Shown: piece by piece, positions 9,611 to 63,464 of the stretch
Position numbering within the stretch: position 1 is the stretch's first letter
Layout of the letters: each line of letters opens with the position of its first letter
Source of the DNA: Amyelois transitella
Lineage: Eukaryota; Arthropoda; Insecta; Lepidoptera; Pyralidae
Reading direction: 5' to 3'
Assembly: GCF_032362555.1 (NCBI RefSeq)
Contig: NC_083535.1
Coordinates: 2,294,001 to 2,358,000, forward strand
DNA: 64,000 nt
Notes under the pieces: model-generated
The model's input: the letters and a program-made list of their open reading frames with translations, nothing else
The model's database searches: none
What the model was told of the DNA's origin: nothing
Program-made: the position numbers and the translations under genes

Positions 9611-10291
9611 ATGTATAATAAACATACATAAAAACTACAACTTTGATTGAAACTAGCTGAATATTTGTGACTTATCCATTCTTTACATCAGTCTGTCTGT
9701 TAGGTACTGTTGCACGCCAAAACCGCTGATTTGATGAAATTTTGAAAGATTTTTTGGGGAATTGCCACAAAGGTAGTGTAGGCCCGGACAAAAGCTTGTT
9801 TATTATATAACAATATATAATTAATAAAGTATATTTAATAATAAATGATGAATTATTATTTGTAGATTAATAATTTATATTGGGATGTAACGTAATTAGA
9901 TCTTCAATTGATTACCGAAATATTTATCCGCATATATATGTTGGCTCTGTCTAACCCGCAAGGGATGTAGACGTGATTATATATTTATATTATGTTACAA
10001 ATTAAAATACGATGGTCCTGTTTATAAGTAGGTGCCTACTTATGTTTTAACAGTTGTAAAAGTTTCTGTGTCGTGTAAATAGAACAAAATCTTTATAAAA
10101 AAAATTTTTAACGTACATATTGCTTAGAGAATTAAAGTATCTGAATAAGTAATTATTAAGAGAACGTAGGTACTTATTATTAGACGCCGAAGTAACTATA
10201 CCGCCAAATAAGTACCAGATCATAGAAATCTCACTTTATTTTATTGCGATTTCTTTAGATTATATGATAAAAAGTAGAAGTTCACACTTAC

Positions 10292-11180
10292 CATGATCAT
10301 TGGCTACGGCGTACTGGTAGTTCGGTATGAGGTCCGGCAGCTCGTGGTGCGGCGGCGGCGACGTCGGCGGCGGCCGGTACCCCGGGTCCACGGCGCCGTA
10401 CCCCAGCTGCCAATCGCGGTCCCCCATCGCGCCGTATGTGCAGTACTCGCTGCCGTACGCCAACTGCTGGCTAGCAGCACTCGAGTGAGAATACGCACAA
10501 GCCCCATAGTCCATCGAAGAACCCCCACTCACACCCGAGCTACTACCACCAGCCAGCTCGTACCCCGAACCCTGAGTCGACGGCAACGCCGCCATCCCGC
10601 TACTACATAAATAGCCCCCGCTTCCGAACTGAGGCTTCAACGCCTGACATTTGCGTCGGAAACCACGAGGGCGCCGTCTGAAAGACCCCTCTTCGAACAT
10701 GAACTCCGCGGAAGGATCTATCGTCCAGTAATGCCCCTTCCCCGGCCGCCCCAACCCCTTGGGCAGCTTAACGAAACATTCGTTCAGGCTGAGGTTATGC
10801 CGCACGGAGTTCTTCCAGCCCTGGTAGGAGCTGCGGAAGAACGGGAACCGCTGTTGGAGGTAGGCGTAGATTTCGCTGAGAGTGAGTTGTTTGTTGGGAG
10901 AGTGGCGGATGGCCATGACGATGAGGGCTATGTAGGAGTAGGGTGGTTTCTCTTGTCGTCTGGTGGCGGGCGGGCGGCGCGCCGCCTCCTCGGTGGTTTG
11001 GTCCTCGATCTTCATGCGTGGTACGCATGGAACGCGGAGTGGATGCGCGAGCGTGCGCAGCGTAGCGCGGGCAAGCGAACAGTGCGCCTGCGCCGCCTCC
11101 CGCCCAGCGCCGACATCTCGCGGCACTCCCACGCCCGCCTCACGCATATGCTTATTGGCAAATCGATTCTCGTAACCCAT
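10292..11180 (-). CDS. bin: FoxF/biniou-type forkhead transcription factor, 5' coding exon (partial gene)
   Basis: This exon encodes a complete forkhead (winged-helix) DNA-binding domain. From the internal Met at 11015 the domain runs from about residue 22 ([11 protein letters not shown]) through the recognition helix [15 protein letters not shown] to about residue 115. The stretch after it, [19 protein letters not shown], is typical of the FoxF subfamily; Drosophila biniou is the insect member and specifies visceral mesoderm. A Gly/Ser-rich and then Pro/His-rich tail follows. The exon ends at a GTAAGT donor (10291-10286), so the open frame past ANDHG is intron. Two starts are possible: Met at 11180, about 30 bases from an initiator-like TCAGTT, or Met at 11015. 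Neither has a purine at -3. The 55 residues between them are Arg/Ala-rich and resemble translated leader. Later exons must lie to the left and were not recognised. The subfamily call is firm; the start is uncertain. Confidence 0.9.
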
Positions 11181-18052: not shown

Positions 18053-18314
18053 ACATACATACATACATATAATCACGTCTATATCCCTTGCGTGGTAGAC
18101 AGAGCCAATAGGCTTGAAAAGACTGATAGGCCACTTTCAGCTGTTTGGCTTAATGATAGAATCGAGATTCAAATAGTGACAGGTTGCTAGTCCATCGCCT
18201 AAAAGAAGAATCCCAAGTTTATAAGCCTATCCCTTAGTCGCTTTTAACGACATCCGCGGGAACAAGATGGAGTGGTCCTATTCTTTTTTAATCGGTGCCG
18301 GGAACCAGACGGCA
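18053..18314 (-). repeat. Family R1 full copy
   Basis: (CATA)n, TATCCCTTGCGTGGTAGACA, GTGACAGGTTGCTAGTCCAT and GTGCCGGGAACCAGACGGCA in order over about 260 bp. Confidence 0.7.
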
Positions 18315-18704
18315 AAAATAATAAAATAAGAATCCCAAGTTTATACTCACCTCAACCTTGATTATATGTTCAGAAAGAGGACTAGCTGACAACCAATAAG
18401 AATTTACTGTGATACTAAAGTAACATCCTTTTTTTAAAAAAAATCTCTCATCATATTTGGCTGTCTGAACGTGTTTACTTTTTCTCGCAGTAACTTTATT
18501 TCGTAATCGTCCAAGTGTCACATTACCTACTTGTCGAGACTTAAAACATATAGGTATAGTACCTACTTTGCAATGAAAACCCACAAACATCCAGCATTTC
18601 TAGTTACGATATTTCGCTCACATCGAAATAAATATACCATATATACCGACATTTCCTCTAAATGAAGACAAAAGACACCAGGATGCGATCCACCCTTTGT
18701 TATG

Positions 18705-18800
18705 GGAAGCGTGCGCAAGCGCATAGCGGCTTTGAATAAATAAATCGAACACCGAATTGTAACCACACAGCGGCCACACGCCGGCGACTGTGTTTTGACG
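18705..18800. promoter_or_regulatory. Possible promoter with palindromic NRF1-like site
   Basis: TGCGCAAGCGCA at 18712-18723 is close to the NRF1 consensus and is followed by a GC-rich stretch (GCGGCCACACGCCGGCGAC). No gene was recognised on either side; the LTR element starts 140 bases further on. Confidence 0.25.
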
Positions 18801-18940
18801 TCTTTGTCTTACTTTGAAGGAGTTTAGTAGAAGTGTTTAGTGATTTTAGTTTACTAAAGTATGCTAACTATAAGCTGTAAAGCTGATAGGGATGTGTGGT
18901 CCCTTACACACTCCAACTCTTTTCTTAGCTCCGCTATGGT

Positions 18941-19198
18941 TGTAGCGATAGCGATGATTCGGCTCGACCGCCACCAAAGGGAAGATCTTCCGCCAGGCTA
19001 GGTGTTATGCCTGGGGAACCGCGGCTCCGACGATGTTGTGTCGGAGGTTGTATTTTTATAGCTCCAATCCGTGAAATCTCTGAAATCGCGATTTGGGTTC
19101 TTCGCTGCTATTGGCTGAGCGCGTCAATTTCTTCGCGATGATTGACAGTTGTTGTGTGATTTGATGTTGTTGACGAGTGGCGTAGAGATGTCGCCACA
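18941..19198 (+). repeat. Left LTR (258 bp)
   Basis: Starts TG and ends CA. It is identical by eye to the right LTR and follows the TGGT target duplication. The next bases are GTACTCCCCCCC. No standard tRNA primer-binding site was recognised there. Confidence 0.9.
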
Positions 19199-19307
19199 GT
19201 ACTCCCCCCCAAGACCAGAGGTCTGAAGTCTTTTAATCTTGCTGTGCAATCTGTGCTTCGGTAGCTTGCAAGTGCCAGTTGTCTTCCAGTGAGTCGGAAG
19301 TTGCTCG

Positions 19308-20025
19308 AAGTCCTAGTGAGTCAGGAGTGAGCCGTTGCGTTGCTCGTAGTCTGCGGTGAGTCGAGACAGTAGAGAGCGAAGTCGACTTGTTGGCGCCGGT
19401 AGGAGTCGTGCAGAGCTGCCACGCTGGAGAGAAGAGCGGCCGTCGAAGAGATCCAGGCGTGGGCTGCGGTAGATGCGTCGGTCGCTGAAGTCGAAGAGAG
19501 TGAGTGCGGGTGGAGACAGGACCAGGAAGCTCGTTCAGTTGGCTGCGATGGACCTGCTGCGATACCCAGTTGCTGGCTTGCTGTGAGACTGCTTGCAGAG
19601 TGAGGAGTGATGCTGAGGATTGGAGTTGATTGATGATGGAGAAGGTTGCTTCCAATCACGTCGGGGTCACCAATGTAGCGGGAGCAACCTTCTCCATCAT
19701 CAATCAACTCCAATCCTCAGCATCACTCCTCACTCTGCAAGCAGTCTCACAGCAAGCCAGCAACTGGGTATCGCAGCAGGTCCATCGCAGCCAACTGAAC
19801 GAGCTTCCTGGTCCTGTCTCCACCCGCACTCACTCTCTTCGACTTCAGCGACCGACGCATCTACCGCAGCCCACGCCTGGATCTCTTCGACGGCCGCTCT
19901 TCTCTCCAGCGTGGCAGCTCTGCACGACTCCTACCGGCGCCAACAAGTCGACTTCGCTCTCTACTGTCTCGACTCACCGCAGACTACGAGCAACGCAACG
20001 GCTCACTCCTGACTCACTAGGACTT
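19308..20025. repeat. 343-bp perfect inverted repeat with 32-bp spacer
   Basis: Arm 19308-19650 is the exact reverse complement of arm 19683-20025 as read. The spacer 19651-19682 contains GTCACCAATGTAGCG, which mimics the interior-to-LTR junction. Any transcript across this region would fold into a very long perfect hairpin. Confidence 0.92.
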
Positions 20026-20033
20026 AGGACCAA

Positions 20034-20291
20034 TGTAGCGATAGCGATGATTCGGCTCGACCGCCACCAAAGGGAAGATCTTCCGCCAGGCTAGGTGTTA
20101 TGCCTGGGGAACCGCGGCTCCGACGATGTTGTGTCGGAGGTTGTATTTTTATAGCTCCAATCCGTGAAATCTCTGAAATCGCGATTTGGGTTCTTCGCTG
20201 CTATTGGCTGAGCGCGTCAATTTCTTCGCGATGATTGACAGTTGTTGTGTGATTTGATGTTGTTGACGAGTGGCGTAGAGATGTCGCCACA
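20034..20291 (+). repeat. Right LTR (258 bp)
   Basis: Same length and sequence as the left LTR. It is preceded by ACTTAGGACCAA rather than an obvious polypurine tract and followed by TGGT. Confidence 0.9.
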
Positions 20292-20573
20292 TGGTAATTT
20301 CGTTATACAAGATAGTAGTTTTTTATAAGTAACTATATATTTAAAAAAAAACCTAGTTTTTAGATAGGTCCTTCTTTAGATAGGTAACTATTTATAGGTA
20401 CCCACGCTAGGGATGTGTGGTCCCTTACACACTCCAACTCTTTTCTTAGCTCCGCTATGGTAATTTCGTTATACAAGATAGTAGTTTTTTATAAGTAACT
20501 ATATATTTAAAAAAAAACCTAGTTTTTAGATAGGTCCTTCTTTAGATAGGTAACTATTTATAGGTACCCACGC

Positions 20574-22474
20574 AAAATTTCAAGAAAATTTGTTTAGTAG
20601 ATAACGCGTGATAGAACAACAAACAAATAATCTTACTTTCGCGTTTATAATGTCGGAAGTATTCATTCTGCATAAGTTTGTTTGTTTGTATTATCTTTAT
20701 TGCATATAAATTTACACAGTAACAAGAAAATAGTATGTACATAGTTATAAAAAAAGTATAAGTACGAAAGTAACACATTTTCCAAACCAAAATTCAGCTG
20801 GGATGGTAAAGGGAGTTTTATTTTTCGCTTTTTGCTATCAAAATTTTATAGTACTGCGGCATTGAGCCACCCTTGTGCGTGAGTCTGACTTACATTTGCA
20901 TGAGATTTGTAAATGCAAAATAAAAAAAAAACTCTATAAAATCCACAGAGATTACTTAGCTATTGCTCAATGAAATGTATGAAACTACGTATGACCGTAA
21001 CTAAAGCGTTATTACTATTATACTGAAAACACTTTTAAGATATTAGTTAGTTATTAAATAAGGAATCTTGCCTTTGCGTTTACCGAACATTAAGCTTTAT
21101 ACCTTAATTAGTTGCATTACATCGACTCGGCAATGACATACATATGTTCTGGAAGGTCAGGTCAAGAGTACCCTTAACCGAATTCACAAAAGTAGGAGGT
21201 TCTTAATTCGAATGTATATTTTCTTGCATACGGTTCTGGCAATTCGGGAGAGAGGTGTGGCCTGATCATGTATGTGTGTTTACTCGGCAATTATCAATTC
21301 AATACCTGATACTACGACAGAGCAGGACCCAGCGAAAGAGAAGGGTTGTTTTCAGCGCTTTTCAGTGGGAACAGGATGCAATAACTGCATCCGGAATCGA
21401 TAAACCTTTGCGTTCATATGCTCACCTGGTACTTTGTGTGCAACTACAGTTTCTAACTGGTAAAATAGTTTATACTTTGACTAGCGACCCGTCCCGGCGT
21501 CGCTCGGGCAACTGAAACAATGTTTACAGAATTGCTTGCAGTTTGCAACCGAAGCCATCCATGTTCGTATTATACGAAGTGGCAAAGTATATTTGCCTCC
21601 ATGTTCAGAACAAACCGACTGACTTTTTGTGACTGTAGCTAGGAAATTGATAGGATTGAAGGATCTGTGTATTAAATTCTTGCAACTTGCACTTTCCACT
21701 ATGTTTTTGATATTTTGATTTATTTACCTTTATGTAGGTATAGTATGTTCCTAGGCAGGGATATATGATATGCATTATATGGCAATCAATATAAATATTT
21801 AAGTAAATACCTACCCATTTCAAAAGACATTACTGAGCAGTATACTTGGTAAGAATTTATATTTCTATTAAAAAAAGAGAGACGATGTTTGGATTATCCG
21901 TAATTGTCGAATATTCGGAAAAAGAGTAATAGGTGTAAAGGAAGCCGGAGAGGTCAAAAAGGATTGTAGCAAGAGGTAAACCATAGTATCTGCCTACCCC
22001 AATGGGAGACAGGCGTGATGGTATGTAAGTAAAATAGAGAATCATTGAACCTATATAGGTGACGAACATTTTTACACAGCGATCCAATTAGCCGTTACAG
22101 CCAAAATTATAAAACGCCTACTAGACACATTAAAAAAGGTAGGCAAGTTTAAATATAACAGACACAGCATTGAAACAATGAAAGGATTATATTGTGTAGA
22201 TATCTAAGCGACAGTTATAGTGATTAGAATTTGGACAGGTAAGATAATATTTTGACGTATCCTATTACAGCCGACAACACAAACCTACATACAATGTTGC
22301 TCCACACTACCATAGCACTTTTGACGCGCAGTGATACACGTTTTTAAGAGCGAAACTTTCATGGGTATGACAAGAATAGGATCACAATTTGAAAAGAATA
22401 ATGCAACCTCATTGGTTTAATAATAGTAATGGCTGGTAATAGACGCTAAAATAGATGTAAAAAAAAGAAAAGAA
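20574..22474. other. Intergenic region without recognisable gene
   Basis: Contains a LINE-tail-like repeat at about 20665-20760 that recurs inverted at 37865-37950. It also holds an R2-like fragment near 21150, the repeat end ACTAGCGACCCGTCCCGGCG at 21480-21499, and an R2 fragment near 21970-22030. The 86-codon frame 21255-21515 ends in that repeat and is not supported as a gene. Confidence 0.45.
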
Positions 22475-22482
22475 AAATTTGA

Positions 22483-22690
22483 CCTTTCGGCCGTCATGGC
22501 AACCAAACTTCGCAACCGGTTGAGAAAAAGACATTTCAATTCCTTATCGGCAACTAGTTACGAATAAGGATTTTTTTTTCTTTGTAAGCAACTAGTTGCC
22601 AACCAAGAAAATTTTTATCGACCATGGCAACTGAGTTTCTCAACCAGTTGTGAAAAATGATTTAAAATTCTTTCTTGACAACAAGTTGCG
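22483..22690. repeat. Left TIR and subterminal repeats of the MULE
   Basis: The left terminus holds the TIR, followed by a diverged second copy of its own start at about 22624-22690 (CATGGCAACTGAG... after CATGGCAACCAAA...). Near-palindromes CAACCGGTTG, CAACTAGTTG and CAACCAGTTG recur along it. These are plausible transposase-binding sites (inference). Confidence 0.7.
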
Positions 22691-22905
22691 TCAAAAATAA
22701 TGGGAAGTAATGGGTTGACAATCTTTGCGGTCAATCCGTACTTATATTAAATCCTATTTCTAGAATTACTGGCCAGGATTATTTTTCCTTTTAATTGATA
22801 TATGTCAATTAAATAATATGTCATTAATTTTCCCTGTCAAGTCAGTACACATATTTTGTCGCGAACTAGCCTCGCTTGAAAAAAAACGAATTTTATTTCA
22901 TTGTG

Positions 22906-24270
22906 ATGTCTACTTCAAACATATATCCAAATTCCTCTACAGTAGAATATATAACTACAAGAAGAGGAGGTGTATCAATATTACATGAAGGACGCCGTTA
23001 TCATCGTAAAAAAATATATAAAAATGGAGACTCATTTTATAAATGCTATGTTAAAAATGGATGCAGAGGTAATTTAACCATAAATGCACGAAATGAAATA
23101 ATTAAAATAACAAAGGAACATGACGCAGACTGTGAAGCTGATATTGGAAAAAATTTAATTTTGAAAAAGATGGACGACTTGAAGCAAAGGAGCAGTTGTA
23201 ATTTTATATCGATTCAAAAACAGTATGAGGATGTTGTCAAAGGACTCAAAAACGACGGTTTTCAATTTATAAATAAAATACCACAGTTTAATAACATAAA
23301 GACGGGATTATATAATGAAAGAAACAAAGTTTTGGGCGTTGCAAAGTCACGTTTTAATAATTGTCATGATTTTATTGTACCCACTAAATATAAAAATTTT
23401 TGTGTTGCTGACTACGTGGATGACGATAAACGAATCATCGTGTTCTGTTCTAATGAAAACAGAAAGGAGATGAATAAGTATCATCATTTTTACGCTGACG
23501 GCACTTTTAAGTGTTGTCCGAAAGGATTTTATCAACTATATTCAATACATGGATACAATAAGAATAACAATTCAGTAGCTCCTTTAATTTTTGCTCTGCT
23601 GCCGGATAAAAAAACAGAAACATACAAAGTTTTGTTCAGCCTAATCAAGACAAGCATCGGTTGGAACCCCCAAAAAATAACCCTTGATTTCGAAGTGGCA
23701 GCAATAAATGCAATTAAAAAAGTATTTCCAAAAATTATATTCAAAGGCTGCTACTTTCATTTTAATCGTTGCTTATGGAAAAAAGCAAAAGCTTTAAATG
23801 TCAAATTAAGAACCGAAAAGAGGCATGTTGCACGGTGCGTTGGTTTAGCTCGTCTTCCTGTTCAATACATAGAAAAAGGATATGAATATGTTATGAGCAA
23901 AAACCCTAGAAATCCATCTGACGGGTTGCAAAAATTTAATAAATACTTTAATAAACAATGGATAAAGAAAAATGAAATGATGATGTCTTGCTCTTGTGGT
24001 AACGAAAATATAAGAACTAATAATAGCCTTGAAGGATGGCATGCGAAAATTAATAGATATATTGGAAGAAAATATCCAACGTTGCCACAATTATTGGATA
24101 TTCTGTCAACAGAATATAAATCTTATGATTTAAATATTAAAAGTAAAAAGAATAAAGAGTATAAGGCAATTGACGAGGAGATTGACCAGGCGTTGAGTGA
24201 ATTAGTAGAAAAAAAGATATCTGTTGGTCACTGTTTGGAGATTATTAGCCCTTTTGCAATTTCGTTTTAG
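22906..24270 (+). CDS. MULE transposase with N-terminal FLYWCH-like zinc finger
   Basis: The protein is about 454 aa from the ATG at 22906 and has no frameshift or internal stop. Residues about 20-80 form a FLYWCH-like zinc finger (FYKCYVKNGCRG, then KEHDADC as the distal ligands). The central part is a MULE transposase domain: the YADGTFKCCP segment holds the first catalytic Asp, KITLDFE the second, and SLEGWH is the likely Glu region. The GCYFHFNRCLWKKA block between them is typical of the family. The open frame extends 10 codons upstream to 22876 but without an ATG. The coding sequence is AT-rich and intronless, unlike the neighbouring host genes, and sits wholly between the TIRs. It would cut and reinsert its own element. 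Host domestication is unlikely because the TIRs and target duplication are intact. Confidence 0.92.
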   Translation: MSTSNIYPNSSTVEYITTRRGGVSILHEGRRYHRKKIYKNGDSFYKCYVKNGCRGNLTINARNEIIKITKEHDADCEADIGKNLILKKMDDLKQRSSCNFISIQKQYEDVVKGLKNDGFQFINKIPQFNNIKTGLYNERNKVLGVAKSRFNNCHDFIVPTKYKNFCVADYVDDDKRIIVFCSNENRKEMNKYHHFYADGTFKCCPKGFYQLYSIHGYNKNNNSVAPLIFALLPDKKTETYKVLFSLIKTSIGWNPQKITLDFEVAAINAIKKVFPKIIFKGCYFHFNRCLWKKAKALNVKLRTEKRHVARCVGLARLPVQYIEKGYEYVMSKNPRNPSDGLQKFNKYFNKQWIKKNEMMMSCSCGNENIRTNNSLEGWHAKINRYIGRKYPTLPQLLDILSTEYKSYDLNIKSKKNKEYKAIDEEIDQALSELVEKKISVGHCLEIISPFAISF

Positions 24271-24347
24271 CGGTTTAAGTCACTCAGTTAATATAAATAA
24301 ATGAACACTATTAAAATATATTTGTTTTAATATAACAGGGACAATAA

Positions 24348-24415
24348 CCGCCTCCGTGGTGTAGGTAGTGGTTTGAGCGTTCACGAAGTCACGGGCTACA
24401 GCTAGTACGAAATCT
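24348..24415 (+). repeat. tRNA-derived SINE head inside the MULE
   Basis: A segment beginning CCGCCTCCGTGGTGTAGGTA resembles the box-A part of tRNA-derived lepidopteran SINEs and ends in ACGGGCTACAGCTAGTACG. It lies between the transposase stop and the right TIR, so it was inserted into, or captured by, the element. It is not a tRNA gene because no cloverleaf can be completed. Confidence 0.45.
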
Positions 24416-24519
24416 ATGTACTTATTGATCAGTGTTTGTATTCGATGAGGACATTACTACATTGTTGCGTAAGAAGAAATTAAATTCTTATACTGCAACT
24501 AGTGTTTTTGAGAAATTCC

Positions 24520-24642
24520 TTGTTGGCAACTAGTTGCTTATAAAGAAAAAAAAATCTTTATTCATAACTGGTTGCCGACAAAGAATGAAAATGTCTTTTT
24601 CTCAACTGGTTGCGAAGTTTAGTTGCCATGGCGGCCGAAAGG
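24520..24642. repeat. Right TIR of the MULE
   Basis: Read as reverse complement it matches the left TIR from its first base for about 123 bp, including the CAACCAGTTG and CAACTAGTTG motifs and a T-rich tract in the middle. Confidence 0.88.
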
Positions 24643-26275: not shown

Positions 26276-26281
26276 TTTATT
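26276..26281 (-). terminator. Polyadenylation signal of the zinc-finger gene
   Basis: AATAAA on the minus strand overlaps the stop codon. If used, the 3' UTR would be only a few tens of bases long. Confidence 0.5.
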
Positions 26282-28881
26282 AAAAAGAGAGGACATTTTC
26301 TGGCAACATTTCCTGGGACTGATAGTTGTAACAATTATGCTGCGGCGCTGCAGCCAACTCAGCAGCGTAATACAAGGTTTCTCCGTCCTGCACCGGCTGT
26401 AAATTAGCCAGATTCAAAAACTCCAACTGATTCTGGTGTGGCACTTCTTGGGCGTACCGTTCCACCACCAGCGAAGATGTGTCCCCAACATGAGACCTCA
26501 TATGGAAATTCAAATGGCTGCTTTGCTTAAACCGCTTACCACATGCGAAACATTCAAAAGGCTGTATGTTAGTGTGAGTTCGCATGTGTTGGCGCAAATG
26601 CACGGACTGCGAGAAGCACTTGCTGCAAATGACACATTTGAATGGTTTTATCTTCGTGTGCGTACGTAAATGCTGGTCTAATCCAGCTTTTTGGGTGAAG
26701 GCTTTAGGGCAAAACGAGCAGGCAAAGGGCCTAACGCCTGTATGCATCCGCATATGCTGTTGTAGACCGCCCTGTTGGGTGAATCTCTTTGCACAAATCG
26801 AGCATTGGTGTGGTTTGATCTTTGCATGGACAATTCTGTTATGCTCATCGTATTGGGCGTTCGTTAGGAAGGTCTGTCTGCATATGTGGCAAGTGAAATT
26901 AACTCTATTGACGGGTTGTAGTTGAGGGGTAACGGTAGGGGTTTGGTACACGTCAGTGTCAAGTCTTTTTTCGCAGACTTGGCAGCGAAGGGCGGCTTTC
27001 CTACGTTTGGTGTGTTCTTCTCTATAATGCATGGAATAGTCACAACAGTTGAAGAAGATTTGGCGACATTGAAGGTCTGGATACAGCGCTGATGGAAGCG
27101 TACAGGTAAATGGGCCTCTGAAAATAGAAATGCTATTGATGTTCAATTAGGAAGACGAAGATTGTCTACGAGATATAAATAAGTATACTCATATTATTAT
27201 GCCCAAATAAAAGTTGCAAACAAACTATGTAATCTTTAAATAAATATTTTGCTGTGATAGCCAACCAATAATAAATCCTTTTCAGGGTACAAAAGTCTCA
27301 AAAAACTCGAAGGCCACGTTCTGAATGGCTAAATGACAGTTAGAGAAGGTAACAATTAAACTACATTAATCCTACTTACTATTATAAAGGCGAAAGTTTG
27401 TATGGATGTTTGTTACTCTTTCACGCAAAAACTACTGAACCGATTACCATGAAATTTGGTATGTAGGTAGCTGAAGACCCAGAATAACACATAGGCTACT
27501 TTTTATCCCAGAGTTCCCGCGGGATTGATAGGGTTTCCATGCGGACGAAGTCGCGGGCGGCCTCTAGTACTATATAAATCATCTAATTATATATTTCCCG
27601 ATAATTTTAAGGATCTGTCATACTCGTAGTAAAATTGAAAATTTACGGAAAATGTGTTACATATAACCTTAGATCAACAGACGGCTTCCCCGCTTTATGC
27701 TTGGCCTTCTTCACGGCCCCTTCCAACCGTGACCTTTTGAGGCTCAAGTTCAGATCTAGATCGTACCCTTCAATTTTCACAATGAGGTAGGATACATCTT
27801 CGGAGAATGTTCTAGTTGTAATGCCATCCTGGACGATGGTAGGGTCTGAGTCGTTAGTCTTTTGGGGGATAAACTTGAAACCGCAGAAGTCATTGAAAAT
27901 CTGGGGAATTTATTTGACGAAAATGTCTCATTTGGAAATATTCACTGTATTTCCACTTTCCAACGCATATTATATATGACAACTAATACTACTAGTTACT
28001 GTTTCGCTTATTATTAAAACATGGAAAGGGACTGCGGGTTTTTTTTCACGCGATAAAAACTTCATCTCTCGTACCATACTATAAAAGCAAGAGGCCAATC
28101 TAAATTTTTTACATCTCGTCTTGACTGACGATCTATATTGAGTGACTCAAGAAATACTATTGCACTACTGAAGCCCACAACGCCGATACGCGAGTGAGGC
28201 CACGAAGTAATACATACCTACATACATACATATGGTCACATCTATATCCCTTGCGGAGTAGACAGAGCCAACAGCCTTGAAAAGGCTGAATGGCCACATT
28301 CAGCTATTTGGCTTAATGATAGAATTGAGATTCAAATAGTGACAGGTTGCTAGCCCATCGCCTAAAAAAGAATCCCGAACCCCGAACGAAGTAATCTATT
28401 TAAAAAAACCCGTAAAAAAAAAAAAAAACTGTTTTCCTAAACACTTACCTGGTCGCTAGACCTAATAAACGGGGCTATATGATCGCTCTCGCTGCCGGAA
28501 GTGTCGGCGTCATGCTGCATGTTCTTGTGGTTCTGTAGGGCTACCGGGTTGTAGAACGACTTCTTACATCGGTGACAGACAAAAGTCGCTGGGCCCTGGT
28601 CTTCTGTGTACATCTTGAACTACGAGACAAAAATCTATCAGTCAAATTTCTGTCTTGTTTATTTGGTAAACCGCTCAGATGCAGTATGTCGGCAAAATAA
28701 GTTTCATTCTATACCTTTCAGCAATTCTTATGATAAATTTAAAATTGTACAGTACATTTAATATGAATAGGGTATATTTTTAAGTACTTACCTGAACAGG
28801 ATTAGTGTTAGCATTTTGTATCACGACAGGGGGATTCGTCATGTGGTTGGAACCCAAATGTGTTCCTGGCAATTCTTCCAT
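26280..28881 (-). CDS. C2H2 zinc-finger protein (4 exons, about 443 aa)
   Basis: Four phase-matched exons were read on the minus strand: about 28881-28791 (Met start MEELPGTHLGSNH), 28619-28449, 27900-27668 and 27117-26280. Exon 2 carries one finger (CHRCKKSFYNPVALQNH). Exon 4 carries a Cys/His-rich segment, a CQVCEKR half-finger, a finger starting FTCHICRQTF, and then four tightly spaced canonical fingers with HMRMHTG/HLRTHTK-type linkers. It is therefore very probably a nuclear, sequence-specific DNA-binding protein. Exon 3 encodes an acidic-to-basic linker with no recognised domain. Donors are GTAAGT except exon 3, whose GTTATA is weak but gives the right phase. An AATAAA (26281-26276) overlaps the TAA stop. 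The gene is divergent from UBE2G2. No orthologue name could be assigned. Confidence 0.88.
27363..27572 (+). repeat. RTE/Metulj-like SINE in a zinc-finger gene intron
   Basis: AAAGGCGAAAGTTTGTATGG, AACTACTGAACCGATTACCA and the end GCGGACGAAGTCGCGGGCGG are hallmarks of this widespread lepidopteran repeat group. Confidence 0.65.
28212..28380 (-). repeat. Family R1 partial copy in a zinc-finger gene intron
   Basis: Tail and centre only: (CATA)n, TATCCCTTGCGGAGTAGACA and GACAGGTTGCTAGCCCATCG. Confidence 0.65.
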
Positions 28882-45791: not shown

Positions 45792-48700
45792 ATGGAAGAG
45801 AAAGTCAGGTATAATGACCAGGACAAATTAAAATTGTTGAAATTTATTAAAGTACTTTGCTTGGAAATATCACAGGTTGTTGTGGAAAGTAGGAACGGTA
45901 GGCTGGTTGTTGCTAACAAGAACCTATCTTCGGAAAAATTTGTAAGTTTCTTTATTTTATTTATTTTCCATTTAGATAGATAAAAACGTTTATTCAGTTG
46001 CTACAGACACAAAATACAGAGTTAAACAAAACATTATAAAAACACAGTTGAGATGCATTTGCGTGCTGCAGCAAGTAGAAAAGGTCATAACTCAGCGGAA
46101 TTTTTGCACTAACTGAAGTGCAAAACGCTGATTTTCAGTTATCACCATTGAAGTGGGTGCGGTGCGGTGCATAATTTATAACCATAAATTGTAAAATGCC
46201 AAGGATCTATGCAGAAATCATTCCTATTGGAAATGTATGTAGTCTCTGCCTACCCTTCCGGGAAAGAGACGTGATTTTGATTTTGGTATTTAATATGTAC
46301 CATGTGCTCAGCGACAGTCTACAAAGCTTTGCGAGTTTTTTTACTTATCTTTTCTTTGTCTGTATTATCTTGTTTTACTATCTACTGTTACAGCTAGAAT
46401 TATTTGTCTTTAACTTTTGTTACTTAAATGATAATTTTACTAATAACCACTACTAGGTCTGGTTTGATTCAGATTTTTGTGTAGGGTAGTGTGAAAAGAA
46501 ATGCTTACATGTAAATCTTAAAAAGAACCTATGTTTTTTGTTCAATTCAATGCCATTACAAAAAATGATGTGTTTTGTACGGTTTTTTATTAATATAAAC
46601 ACAAAATTTCTTGTAAGGAATCGTGAGCCACAAAATAATATCCACCTACCCCACATTGCTATTGCCATATTTCAGTTATTCATATTTTTCACATCATAAT
46701 GTATGCCCGACTGCATCCTCAGCTGTTGGTCAGATTCAGAGCACGCTGACATATTGTGCTTGTTATTTAAAAAATTGATTTTAAAAAATTATGTAAAATA
46801 ATATATTGTGAAGAGGACTTGTCTTTGGCATTTTCTCTAATATGGCTGCTGTGACTGCTTGGTACCCACAAAACAGTGTGAAAGTTACATGATATGACAA
46901 AAAATTAACCAATGCCTAAACAAAATCTTTAATATACCTAGTAGTTGTTACTGGTTTGTTCTTCTCAGCATACCTACCTCCCATTTAATGTTTTATTTAG
47001 GGAGACCTAAATAAAATGTGCTGATGATGCCAAGTTATTCTTATTTTCTCATGTTGCCCACAGTTTCCACATTCAAATCAAAAAAAAAATCAATTAAATT
47101 TATAAATTATACATAATATAATGTAAATTAGAAAGTACAAACTATATGGAATATTGTTTTGAAACTACCCTCAGGCAGGATATATAAAAAAAAACAACAG
47201 TTGAAGAGAATAAATGAGACAATATAAAGTTTAGTGGTCCTAATCAAATTTGAAAGTAACCTTTCTAACAAAATAGACCTGAGCCAATAGAGTTTCCATG
47301 TTGGGTTCGTGTCAGACCGACAAATCATTTATGTATTTGTTTTAAGAAACATTTTCGTTGTCCTCAAAATGTTCAAAAAAGAAACTGCTGTTTATATTTA
47401 TTATATATTTAAATAGGTTTAATACATGTGACTCGTTTTTTTTTCTAGTTTTGCTTAACTTCCCCTGAGGACTCGAAAGTGAACAAAGAAACCGTAGATG
47501 CGCTCAAAGAGGAGGGAGTATTAACGTCTCTTGAAAAAACAATGTGTATAGATGTGTCTTTGAGGACTAATGATGGTGAGGGTATGTTGTTAGAAGTATG
47601 GACTTTAAAGTTAATTCCGGACAAAGAACCTACTGATATGGGACTAGCACTACAAACAATTTACTATAGGATGGGAGTCATGCTAAAATCAGCCCTTACC
47701 ATCTCTAGGGTAACACCAGCTTATAAACTATCAAGGAAACAACACAAGGAAAATTACACAATATCGCACAAAATATACAGCGGGGAGCCAAATTTAAATT
47801 TATTAGGTAAGCACTTTTTAAATTTTTTCTTTAGTGTTTTATTCTTAGAAAGTTTTAAATGTAATTAAATCTATACTAAGATTTAATTACATTTTGAATT
47901 AGAGAATCACTCGTGTCTAAACAAAACACAATGTTTTAGGTGAACAATACAAAGTTATAAAAATAAGTGAACTGAAGACGGTGTCGGGGACAATTGTCTT
48001 CCAAGTGGTGCACCGAATGAAAATGACGATAGTACAAGAAAATCAACTCAAACCAGCCGTGCCCGCGGCGAAGCCCGAGGCAGCGAGTCCCGCCACTGAG
48101 ATCATGGTCAAAAGCGATCACTTCGTCACGGAAAGTCCCAAGTAAGTTCATTAATTTATTACAGCGGCCAGTCACAGTTTCGCTCGTGGATACAAAGCCT
48201 ATGACATCACAAGTTGCTATACATTTTTAAAAGAAATATTGTGATCTGTTCAGTAGTTCCGAAGATTCCTAATACACAAAGTGACAAACTATCTGACAGC
48301 TATATGTTAGTTTTTATGCATAGAATTTTCTAGAGGCATATATCCAAATATGAAATATCTTATTTTTATTTTGTACCACTCACAATTTTGGTTTTTGCAG
48401 GAGAGCGCAGACAGACAAGAAGGAAATCGACTTGTCCAAACCGCTGACTAGGGGCGCTTTTGTGGACGAGGTCAAAATTAGGGAACTGCACGATGCACTA
48501 AGCCAGCAATTGCCTCCGGAACCTCCCATGACCTGGCTTTTAGCAGAAAACGACAAGTTGGCACAGGTCATTTTATATTTTATTCTTAAATAATACACAG
48601 CCGAACAAGGCCTATCAGTCTTTTGAAGATTGTTGACTCTGTCTACCCCGCGAGCGATAAAGACGTGACTATATGTATATATGTATGAACAATAATCTTA

Positions 48701-63202: not shown

Positions 63203-63464
63203 ATACATACATACATATGGTCACGTCTTTATCCCTTGCGGGGTAGACAGAGCCAACAGTCTTGAAAAGACTGAATGGCCACGTTCAGCTATTTGTCTTA
63301 ACGATAGAATTGAGATTCAACTAGTGAAAGGTTGCTAGCCCATCGCCTAAAAAAGAATCCCAAGTTTGTAAGCCTATCCCCTAGTCGCCTTTTACGACAT
63401 CCATGGGAAAGAGGTGGAGTGGTCCTATTCTTTTTTGTATTGGTGCCGGAAGCTACACGGCACT
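63203..63464 (-). repeat. Family R1 full copy
   Basis: (CATA)n, TTTATCCCTTGCGGGGTAGA, CTGAATGGCCACGTTCAGC, GGTTGCTAGCCCATCGCC and GGTGCCGGAAGCTACACGGC. With the 62.6 kb copy it forms a tail-to-tail pair about 350 bases apart. Confidence 0.7.

Follow-up and report, generated by a model that had tools for sequence, protein, structure and literature searches.

A rearranged copy of a miniature LTR retrotransposon family with a 343-bp perfect inverted repeat between its LTRs

The window, the whole stretch of 64,000 nucleotides of Amyelois transitella DNA that was analysed, contains several open frames and repeats. On the minus strand lie an apparently uninterrupted 306-aa open frame with a forkhead domain (10260-11180) and a C2H2 zinc-finger frame (26280-27146), and a short frame at 47449-47868, perhaps one exon, matches ATG13 (autophagy). 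A DNA transposon at 22483-24642 has 127-bp inverted ends (90%), an 8-bp duplication (AAATTTGA) and a frame of 466 aa in which MULE transposase and FLYWCH domains are recognised. A short repeat around TATATCCCTTGCGGGGTAGACAGAGCCAACAG is scattered frequently over the window, in both orientations (2659-2816, 18056-18213, 28219-28376, 63204-63361 and others). Here, we focus on an LTR element of 1351 bp at 18941-20291, with TGGT at both ends. Its sense strand is the minus strand, with the polypurine tract at 19199-19210 adjoining the LTR at 18941-19198. The features of the element and its insertion site are as follows.

18937..18940, no strand: target-site duplication (TSD) TGGT, left copy, from the sequence and the flank comparison
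18941..19198, minus strand: 3' LTR, identical to 20034-20291 and matching the family LTR
19199..19210, minus strand: polypurine tract GGGGGGGAGTAC, directly before the 3' LTR, at the same place in the ordinary copies L013 and L009
19211..19307, minus strand: tail of the TRIM interior, single-copy
19308..19650, minus strand: forward arm, TRIM interior in normal orientation
19655..19672, minus strand: primer-binding site of 18 nt, TGGTGACCCCGACGTGAT; in ordinary copies the same sequence directly follows the 5' LTR
19674..19685, minus strand: remnant of an LTR (U5) end, 12 nt, GCTCCCGCTACA, in the family form
19683..20025, plus strand: inverted arm, 343 nt of TRIM interior copied backwards
20026..20033, no strand: junction of 8 nt between the inverted arm and the 5' LTR, where the ordinary primer-binding site is absent
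20034..20291, minus strand: 5' LTR, its U5 end GCTATCGCTACA together with TATAAAAATA common only to the 3' LTR
20292..20295, no strand: target-site duplication TGGT, right copy
20408..20573, plus strand: uninterrupted copy of a 166-bp tandem unit, the natural empty site, identical to the joined flanks at 166 of 166 positions

The two LTRs are identical at all 258 of 258 positions and the two arms at 343 of 343. The 343 nt are the perfect part of each arm, which measures 346 nt if the inner edge is extended across one mismatch. A perfect inverted repeat of this length cannot have arisen by chance. The spacer between the arms (32 nt, 19651-19682) contains the 18-nt primer-binding site, whose sequence we take to match tRNA-Trp, and part of the 12-nt LTR end. 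Three bases of this U5 remnant (19683-19685) are common to the inverted arm and form a microhomology. Read in sense, an ordinary copy of the family consists of LTR, primer site, arm, tail, polypurine tract and LTR, whereas the window copy consists of LTR, 8 bases, inverted arm, 12-nt LTR end, primer site, arm, tail, polypurine tract and LTR. The 8-base junction starts like a primer site (TTGGTCCT). The primer-binding site itself is confined to the centre, at a distance of 361 nt from the 5' LTR, whereas in ordinary copies it lies directly after the LTR. The LTR has a TATA-like motif at position 139, and neither AATAAA nor ATTAAA occurs in it. The only open frames of the element are stop-to-stop frames of 131-154 aa that overlie the arms.

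The parent of this element is an abundant miniature LTR (TRIM) family of the same genome, about 984 bp long and with a 472-nt interior in its ordinary copies. In the 327 Mb searched (33 contigs), the LTR gave 2533 first-look candidates, of which the best 40 were scored as matches, and the interior gave 305, with 41 matches listed. Among the loci retrieved, 34 of the 36 two-LTR elements that are distinct in sequence measure 977-991 bp; the other two are the window copy (1351 bp) and L062 (4000 bp). A 4-bp TSD is present in 30 of the 36. The pattern of the junction between U5 and primer site occurs at 179 genome places at up to three mismatches, and 60 of these junctions were retrieved from 100 listed, a sample that skips loci retrieved earlier, the best matches of the LTR and interior searches and at least four others. 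From 48 of the 60, the junction leads into an ordinary interior and a 3' LTR. Seven more lead into a partial interior in normal orientation (L096, L104, L106, L110, L119, L120, L128), four lead into no recognised interior (L074, L075, L099, L115), and L093 (the same as L132) is the odd one. The upstream side of L099 (L133) is a diverged but ordinary LTR. Within the 762 bp read from each of the 60 junctions, in a scan of sequence orientation, no inverted family sequence was found. In the first 92 bases in reading direction, L120 and L128 have a leader of about 60 nt after the primer site and then directly a second U5 end; the two resemble minimal elements. As judged from the arrangement of its parts, the family is a TRIM in structure.

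The insertion site is preserved next to the element. With one copy of the TSD removed, the 54 bp to the left of the element (18887-18940) and the 112 bp to its right (20296-20407) make up exactly one 166-bp unit, the sequence of the neighbouring tandem copy. A genome search with the 166-bp unit gave no match beyond this locus. In the simplest order of events, the unit was duplicated first and the element inserted second. Over 601 paired sites (258 in the LTR and 343 in the arm) there are no differences, which at an assumed mutation rate of 2.9e-9 per site sets a 95% upper bound of about 0.86 million generations on the age of the insertion. The identical LTRs, the intact TSD and the intact empty site thus indicate a young insertion. 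A preliminary description of this DNA, made from its letters only, had proposed a very recent, TRIM-like element with two identical 258-bp LTRs, a TGGT duplication and a nearly complete palindromic interior. The structural parts of that proposal agree with our measurements, and the miniature parent family, together with the identical LTRs and the TSD, bears out the TRIM-like assignment. Of the proposed age, "young" stands, whereas "very" is only bounded, at up to about 0.86 million generations.

The U5 ends reveal at which stage the inverted arm may have formed. The two window LTRs share a U5 end and a change in the TATA region that are absent from 139 other LTR places. The AT form of the U5 end together with TATAAAAATA was found only in the two window LTRs among the 141 LTR places compared, 133 of which end in CCCGCTACA. 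Of the 62 genome places that match the 21-base end CGAATCATCGCTATCGCTACA within one mismatch, only the two window LTRs match it exactly. The AT form is not strictly unique: it also occurs, together with another mismatch, in a degraded LTR fragment at C13:9846929. Unlike the outer LTRs, the U5 remnant in the centre is of the common family form, CCCGCTACA, and ends GCTCCCGCTACA. Among the places compared, no source copy was found whose LTRs have the outer form. Fold-back of an integrated copy would be expected to place the outer form of U5 in the centre. As the centre instead has the family form, it was most likely copied from a different U5, as would happen when minus-strand cDNA passes the primer site, and this points to an origin at the cDNA stage. 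The fold-back most likely arose in reverse transcription, before integration. Such a contrast between outer and central U5, which would date the accident to the cDNA stage, is seldom available from genome sequence alone.

The arms themselves suggest a single source. Although the two arms do not differ from each other, at least 5 alignment columns separate the window arm from each of 87 other arms (counted by genomic place), and both therefore most likely derive from one molecule. Among the 87 other arms, the median difference is 14. That the second arm came from a jump to the cDNA of another copy is unlikely; some room is left for it because identical arms do exist at different places (6 of 3741 pairs).

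We consider it highly probable that the window element is one rearranged TRIM copy that resulted from aberrant strand transfer in reverse transcription, followed by normal integration. A published comparison is Ty3 reverse transcription (PMC5371799). For the order of these steps, a snap-back has close to an even chance of being correct. Minus-strand cDNA would extend past the primer-binding site and copy 12 nt of U5, and its 3' end GGGAGC would then jump back to GCTTCC, which lies just upstream, either in the same molecule or in a sister cDNA. From there, 343 nt would be copied back, a second faulty join would attach an LTR made from strong-stop DNA, and integrase would insert the product with a 4-bp duplication. 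The GGGAGC/GCTTCC stem has six pairs, one of them G-T. Folding of the cDNA end does not favour this stem (z-score 0.57; 144 of 200 shuffles reach the same stability or better), which counts against a spontaneous snap-back. The 8-nt junction is only partly accounted for by this scheme.

A different order of joins is somewhat less probable, though still a serious candidate. Here, plus-strand strong-stop DNA, consisting of the LTR and a partial primer site, would mis-prime on sense TRIM RNA, copy 343 nt antisense and then switch to minus-strand cDNA at the U5 end. The expected end of strong-stop DNA lies behind the 18-nt primer-binding site. This is where the antisense block begins in L062 (C3), an element that has LTRs without difference and the TSD ATCG, and in which the 18-nt primer site is followed at once by antisense Gypsy pol. 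The antisense frame of L062 encodes 1023 aa with reverse transcriptase (RT), RNase H and integrase domains, the primer site, read backwards, supplies its final few codons, and after the pol block the TRIM interior continues from about 218 to 472. In the window copy, the antisense arm likewise comes after the 5' LTR and a truncated primer site. However, priming by strong-stop DNA needs two template switches, placed so as to leave a 32-nt loop, whereas the snap-back yields a short loop for free. We cannot choose firmly between the two orders of joins.

Inverted blocks are also found elsewhere in the family. L089 (C18) consists of LTR, interior, LTR, primer site, a short leader and the inverted first 60 nt of U3, with the TSD CATT. 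As both L062 and L089 carry inverted blocks and have a 4-bp TSD, accidents of the fold-back type recur. The absence of inverted sequence from the 60 sampled junctions shows that the process is rare; L062 was met among the LTR matches, and L089 was retrieved with a targeted pattern, so that together they give no rate. A primer site without the following T occurs at 11 places, 9 of which were read (those on C23 and C32 were left out). These comprise the two inverted cases (L062, L089), one with pol in sense (L090), four ordinary copies (L088, L091, L114, L117) and two in L064, a complex cluster with copies in both orientations. By eye, L090 (1-752) has family U5 and primer site and then a sequence like the C-terminus of Gypsy integrase, in sense. 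Gypsy-type pol is thus associated with the family in antisense in L062 and, with its 3' part, in sense in L090, and this opposite polarity means that not every chimera is inverted. A Ty3/Gypsy-mobilised element would be expected to have a 4-bp TSD and to share its termini with a helper, and the family may be a candidate for such mobilisation. In L061, TRIM 129-472 lies next to antisense gag-like sequence and leader, with no second LTR in the stretch examined. L087 is an LTR followed by TTGG and inverted U3; its sequence is diverged, and inspection by eye showed no TSD. By eye, the left end of L132 carries 19 nt of U5 in inverted orientation, and an inverted U3 once supposed there is unsupported (score 24, with shuffles reaching 29 in a related comparison). 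Further candidates were dropped. L074 and L075 (identical, C1) looked by eye like U5 and primer site joined to an antisense LINE-like frame, but their surroundings (L085) show a single LTR that lacks a 4-bp TSD and recurs 2568 bp further along. L086 contains a 22-nt LTR fragment.

The fold-back centre of the window copy occurs at one place in the genome. Its pattern gave one match at zero mismatches and none at one, a search at up to two mismatches found one place, and the exact arms with a loop of 15-45 nt were found at one place, read on both strands. As the centre was found once, we regard the rearrangement as a one-off event, and the window copy is best called one rearranged copy rather than a spreading hairpin element. 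The preliminary description had looked to relatives in the form of a parent element and other palindromic copies, and had raised a selfish element that spreads despite its folding. The parent family was found, in many copies; other palindromic copies were not, as the centre occurs once, and spreading does not fit a centre present at one genome place only. A self-spreading palindromic subfamily is rejected on the same three pattern searches. As a TRIM, the window copy was probably dead on arrival, because no primer-binding site adjoins its 5' LTR. As the primer site sits in the loop, we infer that cDNA of this copy would gain a hairpin-extended LTR; the genome search for the centre at up to two mismatches found no second-generation copy with such an LTR.

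A full-length transcript of the element is predicted to fold around the 343-bp duplex, in a prediction that has no shuffle control at this length. It is structurally plausible that transcription from the LTR would yield a 343-bp hairpin RNA, and a role of the element as a source of dsRNA and Dicer-2 siRNAs is possible on this model. Rfam gave no match to a known structured RNA at 18600-20700 at the gathering threshold. We consider it unlikely that the hairpin is itself under selection or spreads by itself, or that it restrains its relatives as a source of siRNAs. The predicted single long duplex would suit such a role, as would the identity of the queried arm region to other family members (97-99% among the matches listed) and the precedent of Mu killer in maize (in the part of PMC3440606 available); the single copy of the centre and the lack of a second-generation copy in our searches argue against it. 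A broader idea is doubtful, if a little less so: that the family's reverse transcription complex repeatedly makes fold-back and antisense cDNAs that integrase accepts, which would seed loci able to produce dsRNA against the family itself and its Gypsy relatives. It is plausible that transposons could give rise to sources of siRNAs against themselves by way of integrated fold-back cDNAs.

Inverted duplications do form in chromosomal DNA, and the arm could in principle have been added after an ordinary TRIM insertion, by replication fold-back or gene conversion. This is improbable, as the central U5 remnant differs from the outer LTRs in having the family form, no primer-binding site lies beside the 5' LTR, and both LTRs and the TSD are perfect; an inversion after integration is disfavoured by the same U5 contrast. 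Palindromes and perfect flank duplications such as the 166-bp one here are both assembly hazards, but an artefact, whether a fold-back of reads or haplotypes joined around the insertion, is very improbable, as the arms stop at landmarks of the primer site and of U5, one side of the centre reads TTCC and the other TCCC, the displaced primer site and 8-nt junction are unlike the product of a read fold-back, and the assembly has 33 contigs for 327 Mb. If the aberrant strand transfer is indeed the origin, the window copy is a record, at single-base resolution, of a faulty strand transfer whose LTR retrotransposon product still integrated.

Compared with known systems, the element departs from TRIMs in specific respects. 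TRIMs are defined by a total size below about 1000 bp in the accessible part of PMC3532108, and the parent family falls within this limit (34 of 36 at 977-991 bp), whereas the window copy, at 1351 bp, does not. The direct LTRs of the window copy (258 bp, identical) are within the usual range of about 100-350 bp, and the polypurine tract GGGGGGGAGTAC at 19210-19199 precedes its 3' LTR, but no primer-binding site immediately follows its 5' LTR. PbTRIM of the harvester ant, as far as that part of PMC3532108 describes it, is a small non-coding LTR element, as our family probably is too; it likewise has a 4-bp TSD and LTRs within 100-350 bp, and has a primer site after the 5' LTR and a polypurine tract before the 3' LTR, as do ordinary members of our family. 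It differs in its size (480-781 bp) and in a primer site that matches tRNA-Leu, and the window copy differs from it by the internal inverted copy and the displaced primer-binding site. Helenus elements, in the sections of PMC10886601 available, are also non-autonomous LTR elements, and those of animals make 4-bp TSDs; hymenopteran Helenus families use tRNA-Lys, Leu, Trp or Arg, as named Gypsy elements do. However, Helenus LTRs hold tRNA-like sequence, whereas the window at 18600-20700 is without an Rfam match at the gathering threshold. Mu killer of maize, according to the accessible portion of PMC3440606, shares with our element an inverted transposon duplication and a potential hairpin RNA that matches active relatives, but there read-through from a flanking gene is proposed, whereas the inverted copy in the window lies between two LTRs. 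We found no LTR element with a palindrome between its LTRs in the literature, in a search mostly by titles that is weak evidence of absence. The window element is most aptly described as a variant, produced by fold-back, of a kind of element that is already known.
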